Positions 15,717-26,796 of a DNA stretch of 64,000 nt are shown piece after piece. The translations under genes were made by a program, and so were the position numbers. The notes under the pieces were generated by a model. The model searched no databases, was not told where the DNA came from, and saw only the letters and a program-made list of their open reading frames with translations. Origin of the DNA: Persephonella hydrogeniphila. Lineage in GTDB: Bacteria; Aquificota; Aquificia; Aquificales; Hydrogenothermaceae. The DNA lies in NCBI RefSeq assembly GCF_900215515.1, contig NZ_OBEI01000001.1, forward strand, positions 124,001 to 188,000. The letters are read 5' to 3'. Each line of letters starts with the position of its first letter. Position 1 is the stretch's first letter.

Positions 15717-17135
15717 ATGCGACTATCTCCACGGGTTCCATTTAACAGAGAAATCTACATTGATTGTCAAAAGGAATTAGTTCCTGTAAAAGCTGAAAAT
15801 CTCTCTTTATTAGGTATTAAAATAAAGGATAACCTTGATAGATGTCTTGAAGAAGAAATTGTTGTTATTTTAGAGTTAGAAAATAGCGTTTCTCTTAGGG
15901 GGAAAGTTGCCAGAGATGAACTAAAAGAACATGTGATCGTTTTTTTTGAAGCTCCAGAGGTTATCGCTTCTACAGTGGGAAAATACCTTACAGTAAAAAT
16001 ATACCAGAGTGGAAGATGTCCTTTCTGTCACAAAATTATTGAAAATTCTGAAAAGTACTGCAAGAAATGTGGGATGTTTTTTGATTACACAAAACCGGAA
16101 ATAGTTCGGTTTATCCGTGATTTTAAAGTGGGCAAAGTCTTTTATGAACTTCTTGTTGAGACATCAAAAGAGCTTGAAGAAAATAAAGAGTTTATCGGTG
16201 TAAGTCAGGCTATTAAACAGGTTTTTGCCCTTATAAGAAAATATGCCACAAATGATTACCCTGTTCTCATAGTAGGAGAAACAGGAACAGGCAAAGAGTT
16301 AACAGCAAAAGCCATACATGAAAGGAGCAAAAGGGCAGATAAACCCTTTGTGGTTGTAAACTGTGCAGCAATTCCTGAGAATCTTCTTGAAGCAGAACTT
16401 TTCGGATACGAAAAAGGGGCTTTTACAGATGCCCATAAGAGAAAAATAGGAAAAATAGAGTATGCAAATGGAGGAACATTATTCCTTGATGAGATTGGAG
16501 ATATGCCTATGAATATGCAGGCTAAACTCCTTAGATTTCTGGAAGATCTTTCTTTTTCAAGGATTGGCGGGAATGAAACCATATACGCAGATGTAAGAAT
16601 AATAGCTGCAACAAATGTTGATCTTGAAAAAGCTGTTGAAGAAGGGAGATTCAGAGAGGATCTGTTTTACCGGTTGAATGTTTTGACTATAAAGATACCT
16701 CCCCTTAGAGAAAGAAAAGAAGATATACTTCCCCTTGCAAAATATTTCCTCATTAAGCATTCAAGGGAGGTAGAGAAAAAGATAAAAGGATTTACAAAAA
16801 AAGCTGAAGAAAAGCTGATAAATTACCCCTGGCCGGGCAATGTAAGAGAGCTGATAAACACAATAAGAAAGGCTGTTGTTCTCTCAGAAGGAGAATATAT
16901 AACAGATAAAGACCTTGATATAAAAGAAAAAAACAGCACATATACCTCTTACTGTTTCTCTACACAGTCTTTAAATCTAAAAGAAAATATAGAAAAACTT
17001 GAAGAGGATCTTCTCAAACAGGCTTTTATAGTCTCAAAGGGAAATATCTCAAAAATGGCAAAACTCCTCGGTATAAGCAGACCAAAGGTCTACTCACTGA
17101 TGGAGAAGCATAAAATAGGAGAAGTCCATAACTAA
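15717..17135 (+). CDS. Sigma-54 activator with PilZ domain and zinc ribbon
   Basis: A 472-residue enhancer-binding protein. Residues 1-90 look like a PilZ domain: RLSPR (RxxxR, 2-6) and NLSLLG (NxSxxG, 28-33) are cyclic-di-GMP contacts. A zinc ribbon follows (C101, C104, C115, C118). The AAA+ domain has Walker A GETGTGKE (187-194), Walker B LFLDEIG and a sigma-54 contact loop reading GAFTDA (234-239) in place of GAFTGA. A Fis-type helix-turn-helix is at about 439-465 (GNISKMAKLLGISRPKVYSLM). It converges, with a 4-base overlap, on the C39/repeat-protein operon, which has a -24/-12 promoter, so it is the obvious activator of that operon (inference). GGGAGG precedes the ATG. Confidence 0.9.
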   Translation: MRLSPRVPFNREIYIDCQKELVPVKAENLSLLGIKIKDNLDRCLEEEIVVILELENSVSLRGKVARDELKEHVIVFFEAPEVIASTVGKYLTVKIYQSGRCPFCHKIIENSEKYCKKCGMFFDYTKPEIVRFIRDFKVGKVFYELLVETSKELEENKEFIGVSQAIKQVFALIRKYATNDYPVLIVGETGTGKELTAKAIHERSKRADKPFVVVNCAAIPENLLEAELFGYEKGAFTDAHKRKIGKIEYANGGTLFLDEIGDMPMNMQAKLLRFLEDLSFSRIGGNETIYADVRIIAATNVDLEKAVEEGRFREDLFYRLNVLTIKIPPLRERKEDILPLAKYFLIKHSREVEKKIKGFTKKAEEKLINYPWPGNVRELINTIRKAVVLSEGEYITDKDLDIKEKNSTYTSYCFSTQSLNLKENIEKLEEDLLKQAFIVSKGNISKMAKLLGISRPKVYSLMEKHKIGEVHN

Positions 17136-18175
17136 AATCTTACAGGTAACCTAAACTCTAAGACATAATCAGGTGCATCATCTGTCAGACCCATAGAAAG
17201 AGCTACATTTAACGAGTAACGGTTTGATAAAGCCCATCCTGTTCCGAGTTTTAACATTGCAGAGTTCATAGTGGAATTGTTAACATCCGACTTTTTGCCA
17301 TCCACTTCACTCTGAGATGTAAATGTGTAATCCTGTGCAAACTGGAAGTTAATAGAAAAGTTGTATGAAAGGGCATAAGCAAATCCGAGATTTAGACTTA
17401 CTGTATCACCGGGATAAAACTTATCAAGTCTGGCAGACTGTGTTCCACTTTCTGTTCTTACAGTGTATATCTTGCCAACACTTTCAGGCATATTGTAGGA
17501 GTAAGCAATACCTCCAAAGATCACCACAGGATCTATACTTTTAATCAGATTTATACCTCCTTTAACTGCATAATAACCACTACCTGTTGGCAGATCTTTT
17601 TTGGGATCATCAAGATCAAACGGACTTTTCCCTGTTTTTGTTTTGAAAGCGAGAGATACAATGAGAGCAGGTCTGCTTTTTGTCTCTTTTAAAGGTTGAA
17701 CAGATAAAGCCAGAGATATATCTCCCAGACCGTAATCATCTGCTGTTGACTCTCCCTTGTTTGTTCCGACAACAGAATATCTCTCATGTCTGTATATAAA
17801 TGGAATATTTATCTCTGTTTGAATGTAATCTGTTAATCCGTACCGGAAAATTAGTCCGTACTGAAATATGTGTCTTCTTGCATTTTCTATACCAAACTCC
17901 CCCAGTGTAAGAAAAATCGGATCAAGTATCGCAAAACTGCTGAGGTATATCTGATTAGCAGAGTAATATACGTAGGAAAAGCTGTTTTCTATCTCAAACT
18001 GTCTTTTTTTCAGAAGGATATATCCCCTATCAAACTGGGTGAGGGATTCTTCATACTGTTCTTTTTTTCCTTTCTTCAGGATTTCTTTTGCTTTTTCGAC
18101 CTCGGAAGAAAAAGAATTGAAAAAAAGCAGGAAAAATAAGATAAACAATCCTGTATATTTTTTTGTATCCATCAT
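17132..18175 (-). CDS. Outer-membrane beta-barrel protein, last gene of the C39 operon
   Basis: A 347-residue exported protein with signal MMDTKKYTGLFILFFLLFFNSFSS, a short helical region (about 25-60) and then alternating amphipathic strands ending in a C-terminal phenylalanine (LEFRLPVRF), as in outer-membrane barrels. The GLTDYIQTEINIPFIYRHE and FGFAYAL-type patterns resemble the MetA-pathway/transporter-like barrel group. It is 29 bases after the C39 peptidase gene. It may form the outer-membrane exit or anchor for the repeat protein, which is inference from position. Confidence 0.75.
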   Translation of the reverse strand: MMDTKKYTGLFILFFLLFFNSFSSEVEKAKEILKKGKKEQYEESLTQFDRGYILLKKRQFEIENSFSYVYYSANQIYLSSFAILDPIFLTLGEFGIENARRHIFQYGLIFRYGLTDYIQTEINIPFIYRHERYSVVGTNKGESTADDYGLGDISLALSVQPLKETKSRPALIVSLAFKTKTGKSPFDLDDPKKDLPTGSGYYAVKGGINLIKSIDPVVIFGGIAYSYNMPESVGKIYTVRTESGTQSARLDKFYPGDTVSLNLGFAYALSYNFSINFQFAQDYTFTSQSEVDGKKSDVNNSTMNSAMLKLGTGWALSNRYSLNVALSMGLTDDAPDYVLEFRLPVRF

Positions 18176-18204: not shown

Positions 18205-18939
18205 CTAAAAATCACTAAAAGTTTTGTATCCTGGCAATATCTGCCTGTATATCGATTGCCTCATGAAATCTGATTTTATATAGTTGAGCTCTTCATCAGA
18301 TATACCAAATTTTGCTTTTTCATCCTTCGGGAAAATCACAAGTGCTATATTTTTGTACCATACTTTTTCAAAATCTCCTGCTGACATCACTGTATTTCCT
18401 CTTGAGGGATCGGATAAAAACACTCTGCCATTTTTTACTCCCTTAAAAATCACAAAATGTTTATAATTTCCTAAATTGATAGAAACGATAGCAGGTTTGT
18501 TAAGACTCGCAAGCTCTTTCAGATCTACCTTATAACCTGCAACCTTATAACCGAGAGCTACAGCTAATTTTTTTATATCCAGTAAAGAAAACCCTTTTCT
18601 TTTTATGATTTTTTTGACATTTCCAACTTTGAAAAGACCGTTAATCACTTGTTCTTCAGTTACATCGAGACCAAGGTAATATTTAAAAATGGTAGCAACC
18701 GTTGCAGAACCACAGCTAAAATCTAACTTCTGCCTGACTATATTTTTCATTTTTATCTCATTGAGAGGTTTTACTTTCGGCCTTATGTAAACTTTACCAA
18801 AGTTGTTACCGATAATAATAGGAACTAAAGCTGTTTTTTCCTGGGCTTTTATATAAAAAGCATGGCCAGGGAAAAGACCGGGGGATACAAGGAAAAGAAA
18901 AAAAGCTGAAAAAAATATGAATACTTTTCCCTTAGCCAT
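18205..18939 (-). CDS. Exported C39-family peptidase
   Basis: A stand-alone C39 (double-glycine) cysteine peptidase of 244 residues without the ABC-transporter part usual in bacteriocin exporters. The N-terminal hydrophobic segment (residues 6-29) suggests Sec export or membrane anchoring, placing the domain in the periplasm. The oxyanion Gln70 and catalytic Cys76 are in RQKLDFSCGSA, His161 in NYKHFVIFKG and Asp177 in LSDPSRG. Three exported proteins of the same operon carry ELxxVxG-type leader motifs, so it is likely their maturation protease. GGAGG lies 9 bases before the ATG. Confidence 0.85.
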   Translation of the reverse strand: MAKGKVFIFFSAFFLFLVSPGLFPGHAFYIKAQEKTALVPIIIGNNFGKVYIRPKVKPLNEIKMKNIVRQKLDFSCGSATVATIFKYYLGLDVTEEQVINGLFKVGNVKKIIKRKGFSLLDIKKLAVALGYKVAGYKVDLKELASLNKPAIVSINLGNYKHFVIFKGVKNGRVFLSDPSRGNTVMSAGDFEKVWYKNIALVIFPKDEKAKFGISDEELNYIKSDFMRQSIYRQILPGYKTFSDF

Positions 18940-18962: not shown

Positions 18963-19367
18963 TTACATCCCGATATTTGATTTATTAAAGCTGTTAAGCA
19001 GATTAGAGATATTAATCGTTCCATTGTTATCTCCTTTGATAACAATAATATTTATAGGGATGTTAACAGCAGAATCTACAATATTTATGGGCATAAAAGC
19101 GTTCTGCTGGGCATTGCCAGAGAGAACTAAACTGCTGTCAAGGTTGAACTGAAGTCCACCATCATTTACAGTGATATCACCTACATCTACATTGTAAATA
19201 TTTTCTCCCACATTAAAAGTTCTAAGGTTGTCTGTATTAATAGTGAAATTAAACCCCTGAGCATATACAGAATCAAGTTCGTTATCTGATATTTCAACTA
19301 AACCACCAGCTGTAGATAAACCAAACAGCAATCCTGAACATATGACTGACATAACTAACTTTTTCAT
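18963..19367 (-). CDS. Small exported protein with ELxxVYAQG leader motif
   Basis: A 134-residue protein with a Sec signal (MKKLVMSVICSGLLFGLSTAGG) followed at 28-38 by SDNELDSVYAQG, a variant of the double-glycine leader also found in two other proteins of this operon. The rest is rich in Asn, Ile and Val (FTINTDNLRTFNVG, INIIVIKGDNNGTINIS), consistent with a beta-rich secreted protein, with no recognised domain. I chose the second in-frame ATG (19367) because AGGAGG is 8 bases upstream of it and only 2 from the first. Its upstream neighbour overlaps its beginning. Confidence 0.75.
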   Translation of the reverse strand: MKKLVMSVICSGLLFGLSTAGGLVEISDNELDSVYAQGFNFTINTDNLRTFNVGENIYNVDVGDITVNDGGLQFNLDSSLVLSGNAQQNAFMPINIVDSAVNIPINIIVIKGDNNGTINISNLLNSFNKSNIGM

Positions 19368-19369
19368 TT

Positions 19370-19699
19370 TCATTTCCTCCTGACCAAATCACCGCAAATC
19401 TGATAAATAATCATTTTTTTGTCAACAAACTGCATATGAACTCTTACATTGATAAAACCGTCGTACTGCTTACCAAATTTTTTCTTTGCCTGAGCAATAG
19501 ACCTGAGGACTGCCTCATTCATTATATTGGGAACAGTTTTATCTGTTTTTGGATATCCCATTATGTAGCTAAAACATGTATTGTCTATTACCTCGTATTT
19601 TTCAAAACCTCCGTTGCCGAAAGAAACGGTCAGTTCTTTCCCGTAAGAAAATCCTATCAAAACCCCTGTTAGCATCAATGCTGTTATCTTTTTCTTCAT
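19370..19699 (-). CDS. Small exported protein of unknown function
   Basis: A 109-residue protein with signal MKKKITALMLTGVLIGFSYG. The mature part (NIMNEAVLRSIAQAKKKFGKQYDGFINVRVHMQFVDKK) has the helix-strand pattern of small periplasmic alpha/beta proteins in which a helix of Ala/Lys repeats is followed by a strand. It lacks the leader motif of its neighbours, so it may be an accessory or chaperone rather than a substrate. AAGGAG precedes the ATG; it sits 44 bases after the repeat-protein stop. Confidence 0.7.
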   Translation of the reverse strand: MKKKITALMLTGVLIGFSYGKELTVSFGNGGFEKYEVIDNTCFSYIMGYPKTDKTVPNIMNEAVLRSIAQAKKKFGKQYDGFINVRVHMQFVDKKMIIYQICGDLVRRK

Positions 19700-19743: not shown

Positions 19744-22332
19744 TTAGAATGTTGGTAAGCCTATACCTATACCCATACCTATATCTCCATTTCCTGCGAT
19801 GGCAGTTTCTCCGGAAGCTGTATTAGAGAAGTTAACAGCTGTTGCATTGTTAATCTGTGTAACTGAAGAACCAGATATAGTTCCTGCACTTAACATGTTT
19901 ACACCGGCGTTAACAGCTGAACCTGCAGCATTTACAAGGAGATATGTGTTTATACCAGCCTGTCCGTTATCGTTAATCTGTACAGAGTTCATATTGTTGT
20001 TCTGTTCTCCTTCGATAGAGCTGCAGTTACAGTTGTAGATATACTGCTTTTGTTTGTTTATATTTGCTGCTACAGCAAAGTCTGATGCGTCGGCGTAGTT
20101 CACATGGTTTTCTGCAGTTTGAGTGTTTGTTTGTGTTACTGTAGAGTCTGTTATGTCTCCGGTGTTCATAAGATTAAAGGCGATATTTGCAGCTGAATTT
20201 GCAATATTCGCTGTTATCAGTGTGCTGGCTACAGTCTGAGCATAATCATTAATCTGTACAGAGTTATTGTTGTTATTCTGCTCTTTTTCAGCAGGAATTA
20301 CAGCATGAATATTCTCAATCATCTGTCCAACTTCATGTTCTCCTGTTTTGTAGAAATAGCTGTTTGTCCATTCTGCGTTTCCGGCAATTGCTGTAGCACC
20401 ATTAGCTGTATTCTTAAAGTTTGACGCTACCTGTATATTGGTCTGGTTAATAAAACTACCGTTTATGTTTCCTGCATTCATCACATTAAGACCTGTGTTA
20501 ACCGCTGCAAGAGCAAAGTTTGAAAGAATCAAACTATTGACACCACTCTGTGTGTGGTCGTTAAGCTGAACAGAGTTGTTGTTGTTATCCTGATCATAAA
20601 CATATATAAGATCAGGAGGATTATCAGTTGTAAAGTTTCTTATAACCTGTGTCTGTTTATTGATATTAGCTGCTACAGCCATCGCATCGCTGTCATAAAG
20701 AGCATTTGCATTGTTTGTATGATTTGAAGCTGTCTGATTGTTTGTCTGGTTTAACTCGGTTGAAAAATCTCCTGTAGCAGGTTCTATCATTCCAACTTCA
20801 CCACCTGCCAGTACATTAACTCCTGTATTTGAAGCAGAATTAGCTATATTTTCTATGACAATACCGCTAACACCACTCTGTGCATTGCCATTAAGCTGTA
20901 CAGAGTTATTGTTGTTGTTCTGTGTACCTACTTCTGTCCAGTAGTTATTTACATCCTGTGTTATTCCTAACTCTGCATTTCCGGCACCTGCCAACAGTTC
21001 ACCTTTTGCTTTGTTATTAAAGTTAGAAGCCGTCTGAACATTAGCCTGATTCAAGCTTGAGTCTACAGTAGAACCACCAATATGCGCCAGATTAAGTCCT
21101 GTATTTACTGCAGATAGTGCTGCATTTTCCATGATCATAGCAGAAGAATCTGTCTGGGCATCTCTATTTAACTGGACAGAGTTGTTATTGTTGTTCTGAT
21201 TTTTTATCTGTGCCTTTGGATCCTTTGGATCTCTTGTACCTGTATAGTGACCGTTATCTATTATCTGCCTTTCTTTATTTATATTTACAGCTATAGCAGT
21301 TTCTGCTGATGCTTCATTGGTATGATTTGAAGCTATCTGATTGTTTGTCTGGGAGAGAGAAGATTCTTTTACATCTCCTGTAACATGAATCACATTTACC
21401 CCATTATTGGCTGATGAATTTGCTATATTTTTCAGGGTCATATAGTTTGTTTCTTTCTGGGCAAAATCGTTTAGCTGAACAGAGTTGTTGTTGTTATCCT
21501 GATCATAGATAATTACGTTTTCTGTTTTATCAGGATTATGAGAGAGGAGTGTTCCTCCGTTATTAATCATCTGTGTTGCACCTGCTTCAGCGTTGAATGC
21601 CACAGCTATAGAATCATCACCTGATGCTTCTGCATAATTATCGAAGTTTGATGCTGTCTGATTATTTATTTGCAGTCCTTCTGTTCCATCAACTCCAGCA
21701 GCAACAAAGTAGTTTTCTGCCGAGTTCACAGCAGATTGTGCTGCATTGGTTAACAGGATACCTGAGCTTCCTACCTGTCCTGTCTCATTAATCTGTACAG
21801 AGTTATTATTGTTGTACTGCTCTACAATCTCAACAGGATTTAAATCTTCTGGTTCAGTATTTACCCTTTGTGTTTCTTTATTCAGATTTCCTGCTATGGC
21901 GTTTAACTCTTCATAATGTGCATTGTTTGCATGGTTATTATGGTTTTTAGCTGTGTTTATGTTCTCCTGATGAAAACTGTTGCTATAAACTTTGTTTCCT
22001 GACGGAGGAGGTGGAGGTGGAGGAGTAACACTATCGTACAGATAGTTTGCAGTTGTGTTTACTGCAGAGTTTGCAAAAACCCCCCCATATCCTACCTCGC
22101 TTTTAACCATTCCTTCATCGTTTACCTGCACAGAATCGAGATTGTTGTTCTGGGAGTTCAGAGGTCCATGGTTTCCAAAAGTAGCGTTATGATTTTCCAC
22201 AATCTGAAGACCCTGACCTGAAACCTCTTCAAGAGCTTCATCTGATACAGCTTGTGGCTGTGCAAATGACGGTGATGATACTGCAACTGCCAGTAGGGCT
22301 GCTGCAAGTAAATTTCTTTTTGTGTGTCTCAT
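19744..22332 (-). CDS. Asn-rich repeat surface protein with C39-type leader
   Basis: An 862-residue exported protein. A Sec signal (MRHTKRNLLAAALLAVAVSS, cleavage near SFA-QP) is followed at 30-41 by SDEALEEVSGQG, a double-glycine-like leader. The rest is eight imperfect ~100-residue units, each with an Asn run plus SVQ[LIV]N; the SVQ starts at residues 67, 178, 284, 385, 477, 587, 691 and 783. A poly-Pro stretch is near residue 105. Asn ladders and ANSA.NTG repeats suggest a beta-solenoid or amyloid-like filament, although the curlin signature itself is not present. The ATG at 22332 has GGAGGT 7 bases upstream. Likely the main structural product of the operon. Confidence 0.85.
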   Translation of the reverse strand: MRHTKRNLLAAALLAVAVSSPSFAQPQAVSDEALEEVSGQGLQIVENHNATFGNHGPLNSQNNNLDSVQVNDEGMVKSEVGYGGVFANSAVNTTANYLYDSVTPPPPPPPSGNKVYSNSFHQENINTAKNHNNHANNAHYEELNAIAGNLNKETQRVNTEPEDLNPVEIVEQYNNNNSVQINETGQVGSSGILLTNAAQSAVNSAENYFVAAGVDGTEGLQINNQTASNFDNYAEASGDDSIAVAFNAEAGATQMINNGGTLLSHNPDKTENVIIYDQDNNNNSVQLNDFAQKETNYMTLKNIANSSANNGVNVIHVTGDVKESSLSQTNNQIASNHTNEASAETAIAVNINKERQIIDNGHYTGTRDPKDPKAQIKNQNNNNNSVQLNRDAQTDSSAMIMENAALSAVNTGLNLAHIGGSTVDSSLNQANVQTASNFNNKAKGELLAGAGNAELGITQDVNNYWTEVGTQNNNNNSVQLNGNAQSGVSGIVIENIANSASNTGVNVLAGGEVGMIEPATGDFSTELNQTNNQTASNHTNNANALYDSDAMAVAANINKQTQVIRNFTTDNPPDLIYVYDQDNNNNSVQLNDHTQSGVNSLILSNFALAAVNTGLNVMNAGNINGSFINQTNIQVASNFKNTANGATAIAGNAEWTNSYFYKTGEHEVGQMIENIHAVIPAEKEQNNNNNSVQINDYAQTVASTLITANIANSAANIAFNLMNTGDITDSTVTQTNTQTAENHVNYADASDFAVAANINKQKQYIYNCNCSSIEGEQNNNMNSVQINDNGQAGINTYLLVNAAGSAVNAGVNMLSAGTISGSSVTQINNATAVNFSNTASGETAIAGNGDIGMGIGIGLPTF
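19789..22155 (-). repeat. Eight tandem ~300-bp coding repeats in alternating A/B order
   Basis: Protein-coding repeats of 92-111 codons. The ends of units alternate: units 1, 3, 5 and 7 end in a NH(T/V/A)N segment followed by N(I/L)NKxxQ, while units 2, 4, 6 and 8 end in a NF(N/D/K/S)N segment followed by GN(A/G)(E/D) or NAE. The true period is therefore a two-unit block of about 205 codons repeated four times. Confidence 0.8.
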
Positions 22333-22346
22333 GACTTGTACCTCCA

Positions 22347-22559
22347 TTAGTAGTTTTTATTTTTACCGTCTGGTAAACTGCCTTTCTCATCCCAGAGGAT
22401 AATTTTCTGATTATCTTGGAAAGGAGATATAATACGAGGTTTCAGGAAACCTCCATAAACCTCTTCCAACTCAGCATCTTTTATTTCCTTTTGAGTTTCG
22501 TTTCCTGTTTGCACTGTAACAGTGATTACAGTCAGGATTACAGCTATCTTCTTGAGCAT
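22347..22559 (-). CDS. 70-residue exported peptide with double-glycine leader
   Basis: First gene of the operon. A Sec-like hydrophobic N-terminus (MLKKIAVILTVITVTVQT) is followed by EIKDAELEEVYGG (25-37), a close match to the classic double-glycine leader of C39 substrates, then a 33-residue Lys/Pro-rich C-terminus (FLKPRIISPFQDNQKIILWD). Cleavage after Gly37 would release that tail. It could be a signalling peptide, filament cap or minor subunit. The ATG at 22559 has GGAGAGGAGAGG directly upstream and lies about 18 bases from the predicted sigma-54 start site. Confidence 0.75.
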   Translation of the reverse strand: MLKKIAVILTVITVTVQTGNETQKEIKDAELEEVYGGFLKPRIISPFQDNQKIILWDEKGSLPDGKNKNY

Positions 22560-22586
22560 CCTCTCCTCTCCTTCGTTTTTTATATA

Positions 22587-22602
22587 AGCAACATGCATGC
22601 CA
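22587..22602 (-). promoter_or_regulatory. Sigma-54 (-24/-12) promoter of the C39/repeat-protein operon
   Basis: On the minus strand the sequence reads TGGCATG-CATG-TTGCT, with GG and GC separated by 10 bases. This matches the sigma-54 consensus TGGCAYR-N4-TTGCW in every key position. It lies 28 bases before the ATG of the first gene, giving a predicted 5' leader of about 18 bases that still holds the ribosome site. Confidence 0.85.
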
Positions 22603-22657
22603 GTTTGTAAGTAGTTGAAAATAAGATATTTTTTGAAATAGACCTTTTTCCAGAATC

Positions 22658-22674
22658 TGTAAAGAATTTTTACA
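22658..22674. promoter_or_regulatory. Activator site 1, TGTAAA-N5-TTTACA
   Basis: A 17-base inverted repeat TGTAAAGAATTTTTACA centred about 89 bases upstream of the predicted sigma-54 start. Same arms and spacing as two further sites at 22726 and 22744, which makes it a likely upstream activating sequence for the PilZ-type activator. Confidence 0.65.
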
Positions 22675-22725
22675 CAGAGGAGATATTCGAAAAAAAATCA
22701 GATTAACCAGATATTTATATTTAAC

Positions 22726-22742
22726 TGTAAAGATTTTTTACA
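22726..22742. promoter_or_regulatory. Activator site 2, TGTAAA-N5-TTTACA
   Basis: TGTAAAGATTTTTTACA, centred about 157 bases upstream of the predicted start and 18 bases from site 3, so sites 2 and 3 could hold adjacent activator dimers on nearly the same face of the helix. Confidence 0.65.
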
Positions 22743-22743
22743 C

Positions 22744-22760
22744 TGTAAAACTTTTTTACA
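22744..22760. promoter_or_regulatory. Activator site 3, TGTAAA-N5-TTTACA
   Basis: TGTAAAACTTTTTTACA, extending to a 10-base-arm inverted repeat (22741-22763) that contains the stop codon of the permease gene. It could also form a hairpin in the permease transcript, but no U-tract follows on that strand. Confidence 0.6.
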
Positions 22761-23814
22761 GTGTTTTTCTCAGTTTAGGATCAAGGGCGTCTCTAAGGGC
22801 GTCCCCAAGGAGATTAAAGGCAAGTATTGTTATGAATATTGCTATACCGGGAGATAAGATCCACGGATACTGTGATATTGCAGATATGCTCCTTGCAGCT
22901 GCAAGCATATTGCCCCAGCTTGAATAAGGTTCCTGAATACCGAGCCCAAGGAGAGATAAAGCACTTTCGCCAAGGATATACCCAGGGATGGAAAGTGTAG
23001 CTGCAATCAAAAGGTAGGAAAAGGTGTTAGGTATTATATGTCTTGTTATTATCCTGAAGGAGGAAGCTCCGTAGGATTTTGCAGCAAGGACAAACTCCTG
23101 CTCTCTTATAGAAAGAACCATTCCTCTTATGACCCTTGCAAGTCCTGCCCACCCGATAAACGACAGTATTATCACAATAAGAAAGTACACCTGAACAGAA
23201 GATAGAGTGATAGGAAATACAGCTCTTAGGGCAAGCATAAGATAAAATCCCGGAAAAGACATAACTATCTCAGATATTCTCATCAGGATATTATCGATTC
23301 TCCCGCCAAAATAACCTGATATCCCTCCTATAATTGCGCCTATAGTGAAAGAAACAAGGACTCCAACTATCCCGATAGAAAGGGATACTCTTCCTCCATA
23401 CAAAAGTCTTGAGAATATATCTCTTCCAAGATGATCAGCCCCAAGGAGAAATATTTTTCCTTCTTTTACTCCAAAAAGATGTAAATCTGTAGGAATTATC
23501 CCAAGCAGATAATGTTTATCCCCTCTGACAAAGAAATATATCGGATATTTTGTAGAATAATCAATTTTGTACCTTTTGAATACAGGATCTACAAGCTCGT
23601 ATCTGTAAACAAAAGGCCTTATATGGAATTTTCCCCTTTCATCAAAAAAATGTATCTGTGTAGGAGGGTGGTAAGGGGTATCTCTGTGCTGTATGTCATA
23701 TGGATAAGGTGCGATGAAATCAGCAAAGATAGCAAGAAAATAAAGAATTCCCAGAATATACAGTGAAACATAAGCAAATCTATTTTTCTTTATATAATAG
23801 ACAAGTTCCTTCAT
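22756..23814 (-). CDS. Opp/Dpp-type ABC permease (DppC/OppC-like)
   Basis: A 352-residue inner-membrane permease of a peptide or nickel-type importer. The N-terminal helix (FAYVSLYILGILYFLAIFADFIAPYPY) is followed by an unusually long periplasmic insertion (about 40-130), then ADHLGRDIFSRLLYGGRVSL and the permease core, with the EAA loop at AAKSYGASSFRIITRHIIPN. The gene overlaps the preceding degenerate GGDEF gene by 4 bases. ATPase and binding-protein genes are not in this window. Confidence 0.88.
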   Translation of the reverse strand: MKELVYYIKKNRFAYVSLYILGILYFLAIFADFIAPYPYDIQHRDTPYHPPTQIHFFDERGKFHIRPFVYRYELVDPVFKRYKIDYSTKYPIYFFVRGDKHYLLGIIPTDLHLFGVKEGKIFLLGADHLGRDIFSRLLYGGRVSLSIGIVGVLVSFTIGAIIGGISGYFGGRIDNILMRISEIVMSFPGFYLMLALRAVFPITLSSVQVYFLIVIILSFIGWAGLARVIRGMVLSIREQEFVLAAKSYGASSFRIITRHIIPNTFSYLLIAATLSIPGYILGESALSLLGLGIQEPYSSWGNMLAAARSISAISQYPWILSPGIAIFITILAFNLLGDALRDALDPKLRKTL

Positions 23815-24212
23815 TCTTTAAAATATTTCTCCAGCAGATAACCAAATTTATTTTTAGTTTTTTCTTCAAGATTTTTTATAAGCTCTTTGCAGTTTTTTCC
23901 ATCTTCAGGAAAATCTACATAAACTTCAACAACTTCTCCTTTAAAAAAGTCATATATAGCTCTGCTGATGAACTCAGCTCCTTTCTTGTCTGTTGCAGGA
24001 AGCAGGAGAAAAATATTTCCCTCAACTGTAGAAATTATATCTGTCTCTCTCAAAACTTCCTTCAGCACTTTTTCCAATTCTGAAAAAAGTTCTTTTCTTT
24101 CAGGTCTTAAAAACGCAACTGCAAACACCTCAGGACATTTAAATCTGTCTGCAAATGCTATCTGCAGTTCTATTAATTTTGAAAAATCTTCAAACAGTAC
24201 TTCTACAGCCAT
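23811..24212 (-). CDS. Degenerate GGDEF-like protein between the two permeases
   Basis: A 133-residue soluble protein. The segment LKEVLRETDIISTVEGNIFLLLPATDKKGAEFISRAI follows the GGDEF-domain pattern, with the active-site position reading VEGNIF and the I-site RETD (55-58) kept. It lacks the first half of a normal GGDEF domain. It could bind cyclic di-GMP without making it. GGGGG precedes the ATG; it starts 12 bases after the dppB-like stop and overlaps dppC-like. Confidence 0.55.
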   Translation of the reverse strand: MAVEVLFEDFSKLIELQIAFADRFKCPEVFAVAFLRPERKELFSELEKVLKEVLRETDIISTVEGNIFLLLPATDKKGAEFISRAIYDFFKGEVVEVYVDFPEDGKNCKELIKNLEEKTKNKFGYLLEKYFKE

Positions 24213-25314: not shown

Positions 25315-26796
25315 ATGGATAAAATAAAAAGAATACTAAGCATTAGAATAAGTGGAAAACAAAGGAGAGAAAGAATATCAAACCTGTTATATTCGTTAGC
25401 ACAATTTAGAAACCTGCTTATAATCTTTAATAAAAGATATCAAGAAAACTACGGAAAAAGGATACTAAATGAAAGCTATCTTTACTCTCTAATATCGGAT
25501 AAACCATACAATCCAAGAAAACCAAAAGAAGATGATGAAAATTACCAAGAAAAGCTAAAAAAGAATGAAGAAAAAATAAAGAACAACTACATAATTCAAA
25601 CATTGATAAGGCAATTAATAAAAGACTATAAAAGTTTTTTCAAAAGCATACAAAGATACAAACAAAATCCAAGTTCTTTTAACGCAGTTCCAAGACCATC
25701 AAAAGCAAAAAAGTTAAAAGACATTCCATCTTTTACAGCAGAACGCAATGTAAATACATTCAAAATAATAGAAGAAAAAAAAGGAAAATATATATTAATA
25801 ACCCTAACAAATGATAAAAAAGAAAAGCAGTATATAAAGGTAAAACTACCAAAAAATTTTAACTACGATATAAAATCAGCAGGAATAAAATTTATAGCAA
25901 GTAATGTTTATATAGATATAGTTTATGAAAAACCATTAATAAATGAGAAGAAAGAAAAAACACATTTAGCAGGAATAGACTTAGGACTAGACAACCTAAT
26001 AACACTATTTTCAACAAACAAAGGATTAAAAACAGTAATAATATCAGGGAAAGAAATAAAATCAATAAACCAATGGTATAACAAAGAAAAGGCAAAACTA
26101 CAATCACAAATAGATAATATCCAAAACCAGATAAACGAGTTAAAGAAAGAAAACTTAGACATAACAACATTAGAACAAGAAAAGAGAATGTTAATAAAAA
26201 AACAAAAAGAATTATCTGCATACAGAAACAGATGGATAACAGACACATTCCATAAAATAACAAGGAAAGTAGCAGACTTTTTAAATGAAACAGGACATAA
26301 AGAAGTCTACATAGGAAAAGGAGCAACAGAAAGTAAAAATGGGATAAATCTCAGCACAAAAACAAATCAAAATTTTGTAAACATACCGTTTAGAAAGCTA
26401 ATAAATCAGCTAAAATACAAATTAGAAGAATACGGGATAAAGCCAACAGAAATAACAGAAGAATTTACAAGTAAAACATCGCCATTTGCAGATTTAAATA
26501 AGCTAAAAGAAAAACTAAAGCAACTTTATAAAGGAATAAGAATAAAAAGAGGACTATACAAGGACTATGTAACAAACAAAGTATTTAATGCAGATGCAGT
26601 AGGAAGTTATAACATATTAAGAAAAGAGGCAAAGCCTCTAATAGACGAAAAAACACTGATGGACAAATTAGCAAGACCAATAAAAGTAAAACTAAATCAA
26701 CTTTTTAAAGTAACCTGCGAGTCTTTGGTAGAGATAGCAGGTAGAAGGACAAATCGGGTACACGACAGGAGAACACTGGTGAACAATGTTTTATAA
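25315..26796 (+). CDS. tnpB: TnpB-family RNA-guided endonuclease, no zinc ribbon
   Basis: A 493-residue TnpB (IS200/IS605 or IS1341-type accessory nuclease). RuvC motifs: GIDLGLDN with D222, and FNADAVGSYNI with D427. At the usual RuvC-II position the protein reads VYIGKG (G334) where most members have Glu; an alternative Glu pair is in ITEEFTSKTSP (E382/E383). The zinc-ribbon cysteines normally between TSKT and the last Asp are absent. A basic helical N-terminal half and a coiled coil (about 255-300) are present. No tnpA is nearby, so it cannot transpose alone. Very A-rich codon use differs from the neighbours. Confidence 0.88.
   Translation: MDKIKRILSIRISGKQRRERISNLLYSLAQFRNLLIIFNKRYQENYGKRILNESYLYSLISDKPYNPRKPKEDDENYQEKLKKNEEKIKNNYIIQTLIRQLIKDYKSFFKSIQRYKQNPSSFNAVPRPSKAKKLKDIPSFTAERNVNTFKIIEEKKGKYILITLTNDKKEKQYIKVKLPKNFNYDIKSAGIKFIASNVYIDIVYEKPLINEKKEKTHLAGIDLGLDNLITLFSTNKGLKTVIISGKEIKSINQWYNKEKAKLQSQIDNIQNQINELKKENLDITTLEQEKRMLIKKQKELSAYRNRWITDTFHKITRKVADFLNETGHKEVYIGKGATESKNGINLSTKTNQNFVNIPFRKLINQLKYKLEEYGIKPTEITEEFTSKTSPFADLNKLKEKLKQLYKGIRIKRGLYKDYVTNKVFNADAVGSYNILRKEAKPLIDEKTLMDKLARPIKVKLNQLFKVTCESLVEIAGRRTNRVHDRRTLVNNVL

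Follow-up and report, generated by a model that had tools for sequence, protein, structure and literature searches.

A predicted sigma-54 promoter with three palindromic activator sites upstream of a Fap-like operon in Persephonella hydrogeniphila, and its candidate PilZ-containing activator

The window, i.e. the whole stretch of 64,000 nucleotides analysed here, comes from a bacterium of hot springs or vents and contains a minus-strand operon with likeness to Fap functional-amyloid loci and, convergent with it, the gene of a sigma-54 activator of the bEBP class. The genes are as follows.

22347–22559, minus strand: first gene, 70-aa small protein with an ELEEVYGG motif and a KIILWDE heptapeptide
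19744–22347, minus strand: 867-aa repeat protein, FapC-like amyloid candidate, with six QxNNNNSVQ units about 92–110 aa apart
19370–19699, minus strand: 109-aa secreted protein of no known family, conserved in the operons of relatives
18963–19373, minus strand: 136-aa secreted protein with an ELDSVYAQG motif, conserved in the operons of relatives
18205–18939, minus strand: FapD/FilB-like C39 peptidase (PF03412, 79 bits; NF058616, 125.6 bits, cut-off 330)
17132–18175, minus strand: FapF/FilC-like outer-membrane barrel (NF058560, 167 bits, cut-off 700)
15717–17135, plus strand: activator, a bEBP of 472 aa with the order PilZ, zinc ribbon, AAA+ (Sigma54_activat), HTH_8

We name the operon only Fap-like because the FapD and FapF scores lie below the family cut-offs. 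None of the 70-, 867-, 109- and 136-aa proteins matches the NCBIfam models of FapA, FapB, FapC or FapE, and no Pfam family scores above its cut-off in the 867-aa protein, the repeat architecture of which is similar in kind to that of Fap. Based on these likenesses the operon is predicted to encode a Fap-like functional-amyloid system, the products of which would form amyloid.

The motifs ELEEVYGG (70 aa), ALEEVSGQG (867 aa) and ELDSVYAQG (136 aa) all lie near the N-termini of the respective proteins, and the FapD-like C39 peptidase may cleave there. The 70-aa protein belongs to a family marked by a leader-like ELxxV(Y/S)GG motif and by the heptapeptide K(I/V)(I/V)LWDE, which hardly varies (e.g. 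L049, L145, L148), and strong matches (E < 1e-9) were found in 17 of the 112 genomes searched, all of them activator-bearing. In genome G080 a member of this family adjoins the activator gene outside the amyloid operon, and at locus L148 a 58-aa form without the leader motif lies ahead of a GGDEF gene. The small protein is possibly a partner or feedback element. Genome G080 also carries several tandem large N/Q repeat genes with 136-aa partners (locus L087), and two copies of the repeat gene have a three-site sigma-54 promoter of their own. Outside the operon, a 133-aa protein encoded between two permease genes (23811–24212, minus strand) shows GGDEF-like similarity at sub-threshold level only, and a gene for a stand-alone TnpB-family RNA-guided nuclease (25315–26796, plus strand) adjoins the oligopeptide permease genes.

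The region upstream of the first gene contains these elements.

22587–22602, minus strand: −24/−12 sigma-54 promoter, TGGCATGCATGTTGCT, conserved in relatives; start predicted at about 22576
22608–22620, minus strand: IHF-like element, TTTCAACTACTTA, one mismatch to WATCAANNNNTTR, 5 bases upstream of −24
22658–22674: proximal activator site 3, TGTAAAGAATTTTTACA, centre at about −90
22726–22742: distal activator site 2, TGTAAAGATTTTTTACA, 18 bp from site 1, centre at about −158
22744–22760: distal activator site 1, palindrome TGTAAAACTTTTTTACA, centre at about −176, conserved in orthologues

As reported in a preliminary description of this DNA, the −24/−12 element has exact GG-N10-GC spacing and ends 28 bases before the ATG at 22559 on the minus strand; calling it a consensus promoter was slightly generous, because it has one mismatch to TGGCAC-N5-TTGCW. 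Taken alone, the element carries no statistical weight, since 64 kb would hold about 0.7 of them by chance at one mismatch or fewer; it gains significance from being conserved in relatives. A search for a sigma-70-like promoter on the minus strand near the first gene found none, and the genome encodes a single Sigma54_DBD protein, RpoN (195.9 bits). Sigma-54 RNA polymerase is predicted to transcribe the Fap-like operon from 22587–22602.

Sites 1, 2 and 3 are exact 17-bp palindromes of the form TGTAAA-N5-TTTACA and lie where they had been placed before. With the −12 position taken at 22588 and the start at 22576, from which the centres were counted, the earlier values of −89, −157 and −175 are each one base off. 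In simulations chance yields about 0.02–0.03 exact sites in 64 kb and 0.53 in the genome, and the probability that three exact sites fall within 103 bp somewhere in 2 Mb is about 1e-10, which bears out the earlier view that such a cluster is unlikely to be accidental. The whole 2.0-Mb genome contains four exact sites and no match to a reversed control pattern. It had been anticipated that other hits would be few and mostly near −24/−12 elements; the first part is correct, with one further site, while the second fails in the organism's own genome, where this site lies inside a gene. The fourth site (C6:25090) was considered as a second target and rejected, as it falls within a 604-codon ORF with no −24/−12 element nearby. 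In relatives many exact sites do sit near −24/−12 elements.

We compared 112 genomes of the order, 29 with and 83 without the N-terminal domain of the activator. The array is found upstream of orthologous operons in the genus, the family and the order as well as at other promoters, and 47 promoters (two families) were collected. The two distal sites are 18–22 bp apart in nearly all of them, and in most the proximal site follows at about 54–74 bp and then the −24/−12 element. In an alignment of six Persephonella promoters conservation is focused on the three sites, the IHF-like element (TTTTCAA--ACTTA) and the −24/−12 element. At orthologous operons the array and its spacing are kept while the sequence in between has diverged, which supports the original assignment as a sigma-54 promoter with upstream activator sites.

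Palindromes can also be read as RNA or DNA hairpins, here as a terminator of the upstream permease gene, and not as protein sites. Distal site 1 overlaps the stop codon of this gene and forms, together with its flanks, an 11-bp stem, and the RNA fold has a z of −3.8. However, the T-tail belongs to the plus strand and does not follow the permease gene on the minus strand, sites 2 and 3 are separate from the stem, and ahead of unrelated genes the sites recur at comparable distances from −24/−12 elements. We regard a hairpin as highly improbable, largely on account of this recurrence and the T-tail on the wrong strand. As protein-binding sites, the palindromes would be upstream activating sites of the sigma-54 promoter.

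Among the 47 promoters, 27 contain WATCAANNNNTTR at one mismatch or fewer between the proximal site and −24, compared to 5.4 expected (500 shuffles, maximum 12). Several promoters with a far layout have both the site-to-element and the element-to-promoter distance longer by about 10 bases, which may hint at helical phasing. The element at 22608–22620 may serve an IHF-type protein; the genome encodes five proteins of the HU/IHF family.

Which protein binds the sites is indicated by their distribution. The 29 activator genomes together contain 183 exact sites (6.3 per genome; 16 matches to the reversed control), the 83 genomes without activator 60 (0.7 per genome; 33 matches to the control), a difference with p of about 1e-12 in a rank test that ignores phylogeny. 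Likewise, the joint pattern of site and promoter occurs in 26/29 activator genomes vs 4/83 others, again in statistics that ignore phylogeny. FapF is matched in 24 genomes, of which only G069, with a fragment at a contig end, lacks the activator, and all 23 genomes with a full-length FapF have the activator (23/23). In most activator genomes the activator gene adjoins the operon. The site persists where the two are unlinked, as in G080 (about 100 kb apart), in G076 and others (on different contigs) and in G059–G062; and it is present together with the activator in genomes where fapF was not found (G071–G075, G077). That the site follows the activator in these unlinked and fapF-less genomes is a stronger argument than the co-occurrence p-values.

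The organism's own genome encodes seven full bEBPs, and five of the six others contain receiver domains, so that a genuine sigma-54 unit could be served by one of these, mostly two-component response regulators, or by an unrelated dimeric regulator. Dimers of Fis-type HTH domains commonly read palindromes of 16–18 bp, which fits this possibility as well. In contrast, the site tracks the PilZ-bEBP across the 112 genomes, including the unlinked and operon-less cases, in a comparison that covered this one of the seven bEBPs, and the gene adjoins the operon in most activator genomes. Another binder is therefore distinctly unlikely in our estimate, and the favoured candidate remains the PilZ-bEBP encoded at the other end of the locus, as the preliminary description had proposed. 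That description did not recognise the operon as amyloid-like; the PilZ sensor domain, the IHF-like element and a regulon that is wider in relatives are likewise additions to it.

The activator matches the AAA+ family PF00158 (246.5 bits) and HTH_8 (28.5 bits). Its GAFTGA loop reads GAFTDA, as in three other Persephonella, whereas the other orthologues that reach the loop have GAFTGA; the variant might weaken the contact to sigma-54. The N-terminal PilZ domain scores 18.9 in Pfam, under the gathering cut-off of 22.5, and the N-terminus shares 66% identity with that of a Persephonella MAG. An AlphaFold2 model of residues 1–150 (pLDDT 88.6) has PilZ domains as its best PDB matches, many of them c-di-GMP-bound, with the MrkH structures 5kgo and 5kec among the matches. 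Both c-di-GMP motifs are present, RxxxR as MRLSPR and (D/N)xSxxG as NLSLLG. The first is invariant in 28 orthologues; R2, R6 and S30 are invariant in 21 and G33 is nearly so. The second is kept in all but one genus, where the glycine is replaced by alanine. A zinc ribbon with four cysteines, invariant in orthologues, follows the PilZ domain. Based on this model and the motifs, the PilZ domain most likely binds c-di-GMP and is the predicted receptor.

Some PilZ proteins are non-binding, and the activator may use the sites in response to another signal. In that case PilZ would serve structure or protein-protein contacts, and sensing would fall to the zinc ribbon or to a partner. The sub-threshold Pfam score, the invariant cysteines of the zinc ribbon and the glycine-to-alanine change in one genus would agree with such a role. 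Against this, both motifs are otherwise conserved in orthologues down to 30% identity, and the target genes, among them a PilZ-bearing BcsA and GGDEF genes, are of the kind that c-di-GMP typically controls. A signal other than c-di-GMP appears unlikely. The organism's own genome (G000) has 31 GGDEF matches in 2.0 Mb, a heavy investment in c-di-GMP for its size.

Only one promoter of this genome, that of the amyloid-like operon, has exact sites, so that the wider regulon is visible in relatives and not here. There, the same three-site sigma-54 architecture precedes genes for a PilZ-bearing cellulose synthase (BcsA) and a BcsS homologue (L035, L141; same-length homologues at L155, L156), operons of the GT4/Poly_export/Wzc-like type (L056, L138, L146), GGDEF (diguanylate cyclase) genes (L137, L148) and genes for beta-helix and beta-propeller surface proteins (L139, L140, L144). 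Further targets are proteins without known family, some with N/Q-rich repeats (L133). In our view it is reasonably likely, though less so than the reading of the single operon, that the PilZ-zinc ribbon-AAA+-HTH class controls a matrix regulon in Aquificales comprising amyloid-like fibres, cellulose, exported polysaccharide, surface proteins and, as feedback, diguanylate cyclases, by means of a 2+1 enhancer array with an IHF-like bend.

c-di-GMP is the signal by which bacteria settle down. In the mechanism that we propose, c-di-GMP would bind the N-terminal PilZ domain and thereby license the AAA+ domain. Dimers or higher oligomers of the activator would occupy the adjacent distal pair as well as the proximal site, and looping of the DNA, probably helped by an IHF/HU-family protein at 22608–22620, would bring the activator to the polymerase, where it would drive formation of the sigma-54 open complex. 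High c-di-GMP would then switch on the matrix fibres. We assign a probability of roughly 0.8 to the overall reading, i.e. a sigma-54-dependent Fap-like operon with the three sites as UAS for the PilZ-bEBP encoded at 15717–17135 and gated by c-di-GMP. The sites, their conservation and spacing, the co-occurrence with the activator, the PilZ fold and motifs and the matrix-type targets in relatives were computed here; that the activator binds the three sites, and the c-di-GMP dependence with its sign, we infer from these. The activator is probably a c-di-GMP-gated sigma-54 regulator of matrix genes. If so, the activator would carry, as a fused part, a PilZ domain dedicated to bringing c-di-GMP into sigma-54 control, and one enhancer layout would link amyloid, cellulose and exported polysaccharide in deep-branching thermophiles. 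The precise DNA signature would then make the matrix genes of Aquificales predictable.

In the open-access papers and reviews searched we found no description of a PilZ-bEBP (PilZ-NtrC) fusion, and in the open-access literature searched no sigma-54 matrix regulon of Aquificales; nor did these papers contain the combination of PilZ, zinc ribbon and bEBP, the DNA signature that goes with it or, for Aquificales, a matrix gene set of several components. NtrC-type sigma-54 promoters combine 17-bp palindromic upstream sites with a 5-bp centre, an IHF-type bend and a −24/−12 element. The present promoters share the palindromes and the −24/−12 element, may share the bend, and differ in the TGTAAA half-site and the recurrent 2+1 arrangement. 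Complete Fap systems have been reported only from Proteobacteria, while reports of fapD-fapF pairs extend to five further phyla (PMC3792158, PMC6173800). As in Pseudomonas Fap, homologues of the FapD C39 peptidase and the FapF barrel are encoded in one operon with a large repeat protein, but here their scores are well below the cut-offs and the FapA/B/C/E models are without match. FleQ, FlrA and VpsR are c-di-GMP-responsive bEBPs for matrix or motility genes (PMC12564702), similar to the predicted c-di-GMP-dependent activity of the present bEBP. FleQ binds c-di-GMP at the AAA+ domain, and for none of the three proteins does the review list a PilZ domain (PMC12564702), whereas the present activator is predicted to receive c-di-GMP at a PilZ domain of its own. 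MrkH of Klebsiella is a PilZ transcription factor (PMC12564702). It resembles the present activator in having a PilZ receptor within a DNA-binding activator of surface fibres, and the predicted fold matches MrkH among others. MrkH is not known to be a sigma-54 AAA+ activator. BrfA of Pseudomonas fluorescens PF07 is, according to the citing text, a c-di-GMP-sensing bEBP that directly activates fapA and the Fap operon (PMC13101488, citing Guo et al. 2024). Both systems would place a c-di-GMP-sensing bEBP on a Fap amyloid operon, the c-di-GMP part being predicted here. The citing text makes no mention of PilZ in its account of BrfA (PMC13101488), while the present activator combines an N-terminal PilZ domain with a zinc ribbon, belongs to Aquificales and has sites that precede a wider set of matrix genes in relatives.
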